From Fervidobacterium sp. (GTDB lineage: Bacteria; Thermotogota; Thermotogae; Thermotogales; Fervidobacteriaceae): a stretch of 64,000 nt of DNA. The position numbers were made by a program, and so were the translations under genes. Under the pieces are notes generated by a model. That model did no database searches. It was not told where the DNA came from and saw nothing but the letters and a program-made list of their open reading frames with translations. This document shows, in pieces, positions 60,869-62,960 of the stretch (position 1 is its first letter; each line of letters starts with the position of its first letter). The stretch spans positions 124,001 through 188,000 of the forward strand of contig JANZZV010000004.1 in assembly GCA_026419195.1 (NCBI GenBank). The letters are read 5' to 3'.

Positions 60869-61516
60869 CTAATTTACAATGCTAAAGACAGCAAAAAAAT
60901 GCAAAATACTTCCAAACAAGACAAATAAATGCCATATCATATGTCCGTATCTCAATCTCCTGAATATGTAAAAAATAGTGCCAAGGGTATAAGAAAGACC
61001 ACCAAATACAAGCAGCCAAATTGTCAACTTGCTGACTGAATTTACAAGAGGTTTGAAGGCAAACACAATGAACCAACCGAGGGCTATATATACAATTGTT
61101 GAAAGAATCATAAACTTCTTAACAAAAAAAACTTTCAGAACAACTCCAACAATCGAAAGCGCCCATACTATAGTGAAAATTATCCATCCAATCCTACCTT
61201 TCAGAGGAATCAACGTAAAAGGAGTATAAGTGCCAGCAATCAATAAGTATATCGCTGAATGATCGATAATTTCCAAAACCTTTTTAGCGGCTTTGTGCTG
61301 GATGGAATGGTACAGTGTCGATGCCAAATACATAATAATTAAAGATGCACCATAGATCGCAAACGAAGTTATTTTCAAAGGATCTTTACTAAGTCCACCG
61401 AAAACAATCAAAACAACCAAACCAGCTATACCTAAAATCGCACCTATTCCATGTGTCACTGAATTGGCAATCTCTTCGCCTATGCTGTAGCTTTCGTTGT
61501 TCTCAAAATCTCTCAT
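60869..61516 (-). CDS. hemolysin III-family (PAQR-like) membrane protein
   Basis: A 215-residue seven-helix protein of the YqfA/hemolysin III family. The conserved motifs EEIANSVTHGIG, STLYHS, DHSAIYLLIAGTYTPF and the late HLFVLFGSILHFF supply the usual Ser/Asp/His metal site. The hemolysin name is historical; PAQR proteins are membrane hydrolase-like proteins. GGGAGGC precedes the ATG. It is 46 bp upstream of the SpoIID gene on the same strand. Confidence 0.9.
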   Translation of the reverse strand: MRDFENNESYSIGEEIANSVTHGIGAILGIAGLVVLIVFGGLSKDPLKITSFAIYGASLIIMYLASTLYHSIQHKAAKKVLEIIDHSAIYLLIAGTYTPFTLIPLKGRIGWIIFTIVWALSIVGVVLKVFFVKKFMILSTIVYIALGWFIVFAFKPLVNSVSKLTIWLLVFGGLSYTLGTIFYIFRRLRYGHMIWHLFVLFGSILHFFAVFSIVN

Positions 61517-61599
61517 AAAAAGCCTCCCATTGTTTACACAAATTTGTCAAAACTGAAAACAAATCATATACAGATTATACCTTATCATCTACCCAATGT

Positions 61600-61636
61600 C
61601 AAAAAACTCTCCCTCCTTTCTTAGGAGGGAGAGTTT
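61600..61636 (-). terminator. terminator of the cytochrome-like gene pair
   Basis: A 12-bp arm AACTCTCCCTCC pairs with GGAGGGAGAGTT across a 7-nt loop and is followed on the minus strand by TTTT. It lies just past the stop of the small membrane gene. Confidence 0.88.
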
Positions 61637-61639
61637 TCA

Positions 61640-62017
61640 CTAAAATATCCAGGGGAAAAAATAATGGACAAAAAACAAAATTATCAAAACAAAGCCTAAG
61701 ATACGATGCCCAAAAACCCATTTTTTGCCTATTTTTCCTTTTAATAGGAACCCAAGAAAGGATAAGAATATTCCAAACCATAAAATCCAACCTGTGTGTA
61801 GTTTTAAAGCTCGAAGCATAAATATTCCATGTGTTAAACTAATTATAAGTAGTGTAACTCCGGTGTAGATATGAGAATTCTTAAGGAATTGTAAAATAGG
61901 AACAATGAAATTTGGCTTTTTTGGCAGATATTTATATAACCTTCTTAACACAAAAAGTGAAATTTGGTAAAACAACAAAATCGCACTCAAATTTCCAAGC
62001 AGTCTAAAAAACTCCAT
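61640..62017 (-). CDS. small four-helix membrane protein with two H-x13-H helices, probable diheme b-type cytochrome
   Basis: A 125-residue protein with four predicted membrane helices (about 5-25, 48-68, 74-93, 103-122). Helix 2 has H49 and H63, and helix 4 has H104 and H118; both pairs are exactly H-x13-H. That spacing in two helices of the same orientation is the bis-histidyl diheme arrangement known from ferric reductase/NOX and cytochrome bc families. A further His, H74, opens helix 3. ATG 62017 is chosen behind GGGGTGACCTT. It lies 29 bp after the b5-repeat gene, so the two are co-transcribed. Heme binding is inferred, not shown. Confidence 0.72.
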   Translation of the reverse strand: MEFFRLLGNLSAILLFYQISLFVLRRLYKYLPKKPNFIVPILQFLKNSHIYTGVTLLIISLTHGIFMLRALKLHTGWILWFGIFLSFLGFLLKGKIGKKWVFGHRILGFVLIILFFVHYFFPWIF

Positions 62018-62046
62018 AAGGTCACCCCATTCATTTACTGCTTCCG

Positions 62047-62925
62047 TCATTTAAACCTATAACCAACCAAAAGCCATTCCTTTCGAACTTCCCCGACAAA
62101 CACTTTTCCTGGCTGAACACCTTGTGAGTTTCTTGATATATCGTAAACCTTATCACCAACAGAAACGAACGGTTTATTGTCTTTACCATCAAATTTTGAG
62201 ACGTTCTTTTCATCAAAAACCAAAAGGCCTATAGGGAATAATTTATTCAATAGCTGAACGTGACCTTCAAGAGAGAGTATCTCTTTTGTTAAATCCACTC
62301 CCATAGGATGACCGTAATGTTCACCACCTGCAAATTTTTTCGAATACGTGGCATCGTAAACCACACCATAAACCGACAGATAAATCTTCTTTGTACTCTT
62401 GCCATCAAACTTAATTAACTCATCAGGACTAAAAACAAGAACTCCGTAACTTGGAAAACTCCTTATCCTTGAAACACCATGAGGCGAAAGCTTTAAAATA
62501 TCGTACGTTAAATCCTGACCAGCAACATGTTGATTTTTATGCATGCCATTTGCCCATGATCGTGAGTTTGACAGATTATACACAATACCGTTTACAGAAA
62601 CCATAACAGGAGCATTTTTACCGTTCATTTTCGACAACTCACTAAATGTTACACATAAAAAACCAACTACCTTGTCTTTTGTTAATAACTTAGAATCAAC
62701 CTCCGACAAATTCACGTGTTTCTTCAGATTGACGTTTCCAAGGTTATATACAACTCCCTCAACAGAAATCCACCCAGAGGTTCTCTCGAGAGTAGCTGTT
62801 GAGATTAAAGGATACTCTCCTGAATACTTACCAAGTTGAAAAAACGAATCCAAGTGCCCTGAGTACAACAAAGTGTAAAAGGCAATTGCACAGATTAAAA
62901 CAAAAAGCCTCAACTTACCTCCCAT
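62047..62925 (-). CDS. secreted protein with four cytochrome-b5-like (COG4892-type) repeats
   Basis: A 292-residue exported protein with an N-terminal signal anchor (about 5-21). Four repeats of about 50-70 residues follow (44-90, 93-164, 166-237, 238-288), each with an FDGK/MNGK-type opening or equivalent and a V-x-G-V-V-Y-(N/D) strand, as in predicted heme/steroid-binding proteins of COG4892. Only repeats 2 and 3 keep the paired histidines with identical spacing: H133/H149 and H206/H222, after G-x-(D)-L-T. Repeats 1 and 4 lack them. TGGAGGTGATTC precedes ATG 62925. It is probably an extracytoplasmic heme protein that works with the small membrane protein downstream. Confidence 0.78.
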   Translation of the reverse strand: MGGKLRLFVLICAIAFYTLLYSGHLDSFFQLGKYSGEYPLISTATLERTSGWISVEGVVYNLGNVNLKKHVNLSEVDSKLLTKDKVVGFLCVTFSELSKMNGKNAPVMVSVNGIVYNLSNSRSWANGMHKNQHVAGQDLTYDILKLSPHGVSRIRSFPSYGVLVFSPDELIKFDGKSTKKIYLSVYGVVYDATYSKKFAGGEHYGHPMGVDLTKEILSLEGHVQLLNKLFPIGLLVFDEKNVSKFDGKDNKPFVSVGDKVYDISRNSQGVQPGKVFVGEVRKEWLLVGYRFK

Positions 62926-62951: not shown

Positions 62952-62960
62952 ATTATACCA
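62952..62960 (-). promoter_or_regulatory. extended -10 promoter of the cytochrome-like pair
   Basis: Minus-strand TGGTATAAT, a TG-n-TATAAT extended -10 about 27 bases before the start codon. A -35 box is not convincing. Confidence 0.55.

Follow-up and report, generated by a model that had tools for sequence, protein, structure and literature searches.

Thermotogota are regarded as fermenters that produce hydrogen, with Rnf and hydrogenases as their membrane redox enzymes. Our searches of the Thermotogota literature for cytochromes turned up none, and the paper on the Rnf complex of T. maritima mentions neither cytochrome nor heme. The window analysed here, a stretch of 64,000 nucleotides from a genome of Fervidobacterium sp., contains two adjacent genes that raise the question of whether such an organism moves electrons through hemes across its membrane. 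One gene encodes an exported protein with cytochrome b5-like repeats (P0001), the other a small membrane protein with regularly spaced histidines (P0002). Together with their relatives they are called below the b5 protein and the membrane protein, respectively.

Gene layout

The features of the locus are listed in Table 1. The b5 protein has 292 amino acids when counted from the ATG at 62925, which is preceded by GGAGGTGAT; the reading frame is open from 62940, and the positions of its histidines are given in the 297-aa numbering. The ATG of the membrane protein gene (62017) is preceded by GGGGTGA, and each of the two genes has a clear Shine-Dalgarno sequence. A longer form of the membrane protein, starting at 62050 and overlapping the b5 stop codon, is possible. 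The hairpin starts directly 3' of the stop codon of the membrane protein gene, and a shorter form of it is called on the plus strand. The gene positions, the spacer of exactly 29 bp between the genes and the shared terminator given in the initial annotation were confirmed. The promoter assigned there to the pair is weaker than claimed: an extended −10-like site is present upstream of the b5 gene, but promoter-like sites are not enriched relative to shuffled sequences (6 found, 5.9 expected), which leaves this site without statistical support.

The HlyIII/PAQR-family gene was rejected as a third member, given its position behind the terminator and its own perfect promoter TTGACA-17-TATAAT (12/12) at 61574–61602. 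The module therefore consists of two genes.

Table 1. Features of the locus (positions in the window) and the DOMON genes behind the membrane protein gene in two other genomes.
Feature	Position	Strand	Basis
HlyIII/PAQR-family gene, neighbour outside the module	60869-61516	minus	PF03006, 147 bits
14-bp perfect hairpin, shared terminator	61603-61637	minus	T run after it on either strand
125-aa four-helix membrane protein gene (P0002)	61640-62017	minus	invariant His, AF2 model
Codon of H118	61664-61666	minus	
Codon of H104	61706-61708	minus	
Codon of H63	61829-61831	minus	
Codon of H49	61871-61873	minus	
Exported b5-repeat protein gene (P0001)	62047-62925	minus	PF00173 match, AF2 model, orthologues aligned
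b5-like repeat 4, truncated, without heme pocket helices	62053-62172	minus	model secondary structure
b5 repeat 3, complete; candidate ligands H211 (or H208) and H227	62215-62385	minus	phmmer to 6nzx, E 6.4e-4
b5 repeat 2, complete; candidate ligands H138 (or H134) and H154	62431-62649	minus	6nzx match, E 6.3e-12
b5-like repeat 1, truncated, without heme pocket helices	62647-62772	minus	model secondary structure
Sec signal peptide or N-terminal anchor of the b5 protein	62863-62925	minus	hydrophobic start GGKLRLFVLICAIAFYTLLYSG, model helix H7-25
Extended −10-like site TGGTATAAT upstream of the b5 gene	62952-62960	minus	by-eye reading
Exported DOMON protein behind the membrane protein gene	L140:1548-2090		
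Exported DOMON protein behind the membrane protein gene	L147:6056-6571		

The membrane protein

Helices 2 and 4 of P0002 contain one H-x13-H pair each, H49/H63 and H104/H118. Two such pairs arise in 615 of 100,000 shuffles of this sequence. Both are kept in all 32 aligned Thermotogota relatives, and the four histidines stayed invariant as the alignment grew from 18 relatives to 32 and then to a set with two Clostridia; this invariance across phyla rules out a chance origin of the pattern. Conservation of the histidines had been named beforehand as a check on the proposal, as had structure prediction. The AF2 model built from the 32-relative alignment is confident (mean pLDDT 94.7) and consists of four helices (residues 2–30, 38–68, 75–91 and 99–120), so that sequence and model agree with the original placement of H-x13-H in two of four helices.

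The mean net charge is +6.5 in loop 1 and +4.2 in loop 3, and about 0 in the outer loop and the termini. By the positive-inside rule, this distribution points to an N-out/C-out topology. Helices 2 and 4 would therefore both run from the inside to the outside, with one heme site near each face: H49 and H104 would lie near the inner face, and H63 and H118 near the outer one.

Scanning P0002 against Pfam and NCBIfam gave nothing over the cut-offs, a profile search of the PDB with the membrane protein gave no match, and a scan of genome contigs with the alignment of 18 relatives revealed no conserved stretch. Foldseek with its model yielded no match at E ≤ 1e-3; by probability, the top matches (all with E > 1e-3) were complex III cytochrome b (0.94), heme A synthase (0.75) and NOX5 (0.57). 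With regard to the diheme cytochrome b superfamily, we thus have four invariant histidines and weak fold matches, none of them at E ≤ 1e-3. P0002 is probably a small four-helix membrane protein holding two hemes.

The exported protein

P0001 matches PF00173 with 65.2 bits (cut-off 23.7) in three stretches, and its AF2 model has a pLDDT of 91. The best Foldseek match of the whole model is that of repeat 2 to 6nzx, a b5 domain from Hadesarchaea (TMt 0.90, rmsd 1.1, 44% identity), whereas bovine b5 (1cyo) gives a TMt of 0.54. The partner initially described as b5-like and exported has, indeed, a true b5 fold in the model and a hydrophobic N-terminal export signal. Structures of MAPR-like b5 proteins (6nzx, and 6vz6 from Methanococcoides burtonii) share the fold of repeat 2 but are single 78-residue domains, whereas the protein in the window has four repeats behind a signal sequence and is tied to a membrane protein. 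The count of four repeats stands in part: repeats 2 and 3 are complete and each have the two axial histidines of PF00173 as an H-x15-H pair (H138/H154 and H211/H227), whereas repeats 1 and 4 are truncated in the model.

On the modelled fold, the complete domains 2 and 3 would carry heme b. In repeat 3 of the Pseudothermotoga b5 proteins, tyrosine replaces the first histidine. In L146 and in the Clostridial b5 proteins the histidine before AG is absent and the GxH histidine is kept. Since some relatives keep only the latter, both the GxH and the HxAG histidines are candidates for the first ligand. All four repeats are full-length in a family f10 relative (L142), repeat 1 included, and three keep both histidines; the b5 protein of the window's genus therefore looks like a reduced form. 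Repeat 4 of the Pseudothermotoga type (L056, L057, L060–L065) bears an insertion FECExxxxCxHxH, with two cysteines and several histidines, which is absent in the window.

Distribution of the gene pair

A search for the same pair in relatives had been suggested at the outset, and the pair does recur. Among 103 genomes of the phylum, the profile of the membrane protein matches in 43, that of the b5 protein in 40 (four of them added from a separate search), and both in 34. The b5 protein is present in 34 of the 43 genomes with the membrane protein and in 6 of the 60 others (Fisher p 5e-13, no phylogenetic correction). The genes are adjacent and on the same strand in about 25 genomes. Linked pairs occur in both orders, always on one strand: the b5 gene comes first in the window's genus and in Pseudothermotoga, and the membrane protein gene in Thermosipho, G037 and family f10. 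In G024 and in genus g27 of family f9, the genes lie apart. The membrane protein occurs without a detected b5 protein in G001 and G004, and in G047 a b5 fragment lies next to it at a contig edge. An intact b5 gene stands beside a broken membrane protein gene at L048 (G003; internal deletion and stop codons) and beside apparently frame-broken ones at L062 (G030) and L065 (G036), where an assembly error is possible.

Outside the phylum, Peptoclostridium acidaminophilum and Acetoanaerobium noterae have a gene for a b5 lipoprotein followed directly by a relative of the membrane protein with two H-x13-H pairs. As the Clostridial b5 partners are lipoproteins, they should be extracytoplasmic.

In two genomes, G078 and G086, the membrane protein occurs without the b5 protein, and directly downstream of its gene lies that of an exported DOMON protein (48.9 and 53.9 bits, cut-off 32.7). 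DOMON matches are found in 2 of the 103 genomes of the phylum, both times directly behind the membrane protein. DOMON and b5 domains have unrelated folds, and both are able to bind heme b. The apparent exchange of one outer heme-b domain for the other speaks for electrons passing between the membrane protein and a heme on the outside, and we consider it the best evidence for such transfer.

Several b5 domains were seen in other settings. G048–G051 (L100–L102, L104) encode a signal-less b5 domain fused to a DUF2231 membrane domain, checked with Pfam for L101; here too, a b5 domain is combined with a small membrane protein of several helices. At L067:5237-6033 and L068:4747-5543, in genomes without the membrane protein, a 77-aa single-domain b5 gene overlaps a ferritin-like gene by 4 bp. 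A lipoprotein-like protein of Methanocellales (L154:4623-5459) has a long Pro-Thr linker and two b5 domains, and a flavodoxin-like gene follows; no relative of the membrane protein was seen in this stretch.

Gene neighbourhood

In six relatives from the window's genus (G001, G003, G004, G006, G007 and G008), an operon of NqrB-C-D-E-F-like genes and a 149-aa gene is divergent from the pair or its remnant; it was read fully in G001 and G007, and the first genes only in the other four. In the window's genome, the NQR-type operon is on contig C6 (L162:4604-8988). Its F subunit passes the NqrF cut-off (296.3 vs 295), and its D subunit passes that of NqrD. NQR-type operons are also present at L052, L047 and L163–L167, those at L164 and L167 being assigned without a check of each subunit. 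A conserved gene of 149–152 aa (MKMTPxYxKAQxNMKPGxITAxGFLGDDDRN) without a Pfam or NCBIfam match follows the operon in most loci. NqrA is absent from the NQR operons read. PF05896 matches elsewhere were rejected as NqrA: they are weak and lie about 1–1.3 kb from the first RnfD, as expected for RnfC. A second NQR copy is found in 37 of the 43 genomes with the membrane protein and in 16 of the 60 others (p 2e-9, no phylogenetic correction); G032, G034 and G037 keep the pair without a second NQR match.

In two genomes of the Thermosipho family, the membrane protein gene lies 15 bp after genes of a PorB/Kor-type 2-oxoacid:ferredoxin oxidoreductase, and in three Pseudothermotoga-type genomes a gene for an FNR-like subunit follows it at some distance. 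The neighbours suggest a link of the module to ferredoxin or NADH. Neither a cytoplasmic dehydrogenase domain nor a consistent neighbour marks the donor; no acceptor reductase is linked to the pair.

Heme supply

Profile searches found ferrochelatase in none of 61 genomes (positive in 8 of 14 controls) and no AhbD over the cut-off. Weak matches to TIGR04545 (AhbD) in every genome were ascribed to radical-SAM homology. HemB occurs in 4 of the 61 genomes, three of them in the family containing Thermosipho and none in the window's genus. By its gene content, this genus appears unable to make heme, a point that the initial annotation did not raise. With ferrochelatase and HemB missing, these bacteria must scavenge the heme, unless the sites are without it. 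The missing pathway is the main fact against a heme relay.

Comparison with known systems

The flavinylation-associated cytochromes of DUF4405 (PF14358) and of the MsrQ-like type (PF01794) resemble the pair: they are small and have four conserved histidines, two hemes and an extracytoplasmic redox partner. That DUF4405 is a heme b cytochrome, with six helices, was demonstrated in 2024 (PMC11334425). Members of these families span the membrane six times and have a flavinylated protein as partner, whereas the protein studied here fits four helices into about 120 aa and has a putative heme protein in that place. The DUF4405 profile matches 8 of 32 relatives of P0002 at E ≤ 0.01 (best 3.5e-5), and P0002 itself has no match; for PF01794, the best relative has E 5.5e-4, and P0002 again has no match. 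With four helices and no profile match, P0002 was assigned to neither family, although it shares the four histidines with DUF4405. Assignment to prokaryotic cytochrome b561 (PF01292) was rejected at 16.2 bits against a cut-off of 30.1.

CYBDOM proteins such as Arabidopsis HYP1, for which trans-membrane electron transport has been demonstrated (PMC10784544), likewise combine a diheme membrane cytochrome with an extracytoplasmic heme-b domain, and G078 and G086 would have a two-gene counterpart with DOMON. CYBDOM is a single fused eukaryotic protein with a membrane part from another family, whereas the window has separate genes and b5 repeats instead of DOMON; lacking the DOMON-b561 fusion, the module was not counted as CYBDOM. 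Complex III cytochrome b and NADPH oxidases share with the membrane protein the H-x13-H pattern in two parallel helices with one helix between, and a weak fold match. In contrast to them, it has no detectable sequence relation and no dehydrogenase domain, and there is no sign of complex III partner subunits.

Alternative explanations

Electrons from NADH could cross the membrane through the NqrA-less NQR to the outer FMN of NqrC, instead of passing from a cytoplasmic donor through the small cytochrome, with the b5 protein and the membrane protein serving as acceptor and as membrane anchor or return path. NQR electrons do pass the extracytosolic NqrC flavin (PMC11334425), and the six divergent NqrBCDEF operons, the enrichment of a second copy and the reading of the operons without NqrA, with PF05896 matches beside the first RnfD, speak for this route. 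We nevertheless find it doubtful, since G032 and G034 (99% complete) and G037 keep the pair with a single NQR/Rnf match, a second NQR occurs without the membrane protein in 16 genomes, and the co-occurrence statistic carries no phylogenetic correction.

Organisms without heme synthesis genes would be well served by a heme-acquisition system, with the b5 repeats capturing heme for the membrane protein to carry inward; b5 and MAPR-type proteins do bind heme. It is quite improbable that the pair has this role, given that the membrane protein is built of four helices, keeps four histidines invariant and shows no homology to transporters, that its DOMON partner in G078 and G086 belongs to a family known for electron-transfer domains, and that redox operons are linked to the pair and no other heme-using protein was found beside it. 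A ferric reductase that serves the uptake or storage of iron, instead of an outlet for electrons from respiration or fermentation, appears unlikely: among the loci read no iron transporter is a consistent neighbour, a FeoB-like gene being found, a few genes off, in L054 only. The overlap of the single-domain b5 gene with the ferritin gene in L067 counts in its favour, as does the reduction of ferric iron by the CYBDOM protein HYP1 with its DOMON and b561 parts (PMC10784544). Finally, the histidines may be structural or hold another cofactor, neither protein being a cytochrome. The lack of a heme pathway in the genus fits this reading, but the same membrane protein is found with two unrelated heme-b families, b5 and DOMON, and H-x13-H in parallel helices is the pattern of diheme cytochromes b; we regard it as very improbable.

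Proposed function

We consider it fairly probable that the pair works as a transmembrane electron relay of b hemes. The path across the membrane proposed in the initial annotation gains from the invariant histidines, the four-helix model, the N-out/C-out topology, the b5 fold, the recurrence of the pair and the DOMON exchange. In the relay, helices 2 and 4 would run parallel in a minimal diheme cytochrome b, with one heme bound by H49/H104 close to the cytoplasm and a second by H63/H118 close to the outside. The exported protein would form a complex with it at the outer face, with heme in its two complete b5 domains. Electrons from the oxidation of sugars or amino acids would pass through ferredoxin or NADH to the cytochrome and on to the b5 protein, and the final acceptor would be periplasmic or external, most likely a sulfur compound or ferric iron. 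The basic conserved inner loop 1 could dock an acidic ferredoxin. The NqrA-less NQR, with its outward FMN subunit, may feed or share the outer heme protein, as neighbourhood and co-occurrence suggest. The heme of the relay would be scavenged. An unlikely extension is an apparently quinone-free chain on scavenged heme, in which NADH or ferredoxin would feed an NqrA-less Na+-pumping NQR and/or the diheme cytochrome, and these the b5 or DOMON hemes, so that electrons reach an external acceptor instead of protons.

The reduction of keratin, offered initially as one possible role, was not borne out: the module also occurs in Pseudothermotoga, Thermosipho, Peptoclostridium and Acetoanaerobium, a distribution that a keratin-specific role fails to explain, and the papers on keratin and Fervidobacterium that were searched make no mention of a cytochrome. 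Such a role is unlikely, though conceivable within a single genus.

The pair is a real, previously unannotated form of the combination of a transmembrane diheme cytochrome with an outer heme domain. If heme-bearing, the membrane proteins are a family of compact (about 120 aa) diheme membrane cytochromes without a profile model, and the replacement of b5 by DOMON would be a natural case of outer heme domain exchange. If both proteins are cytochromes, their heme is scavenged, which implies dependence on neighbours or on the medium. The relay, if true, is conserved in roughly 40% of the genomes searched within the phylum and would give Thermotogota an extra membrane outlet for electrons.
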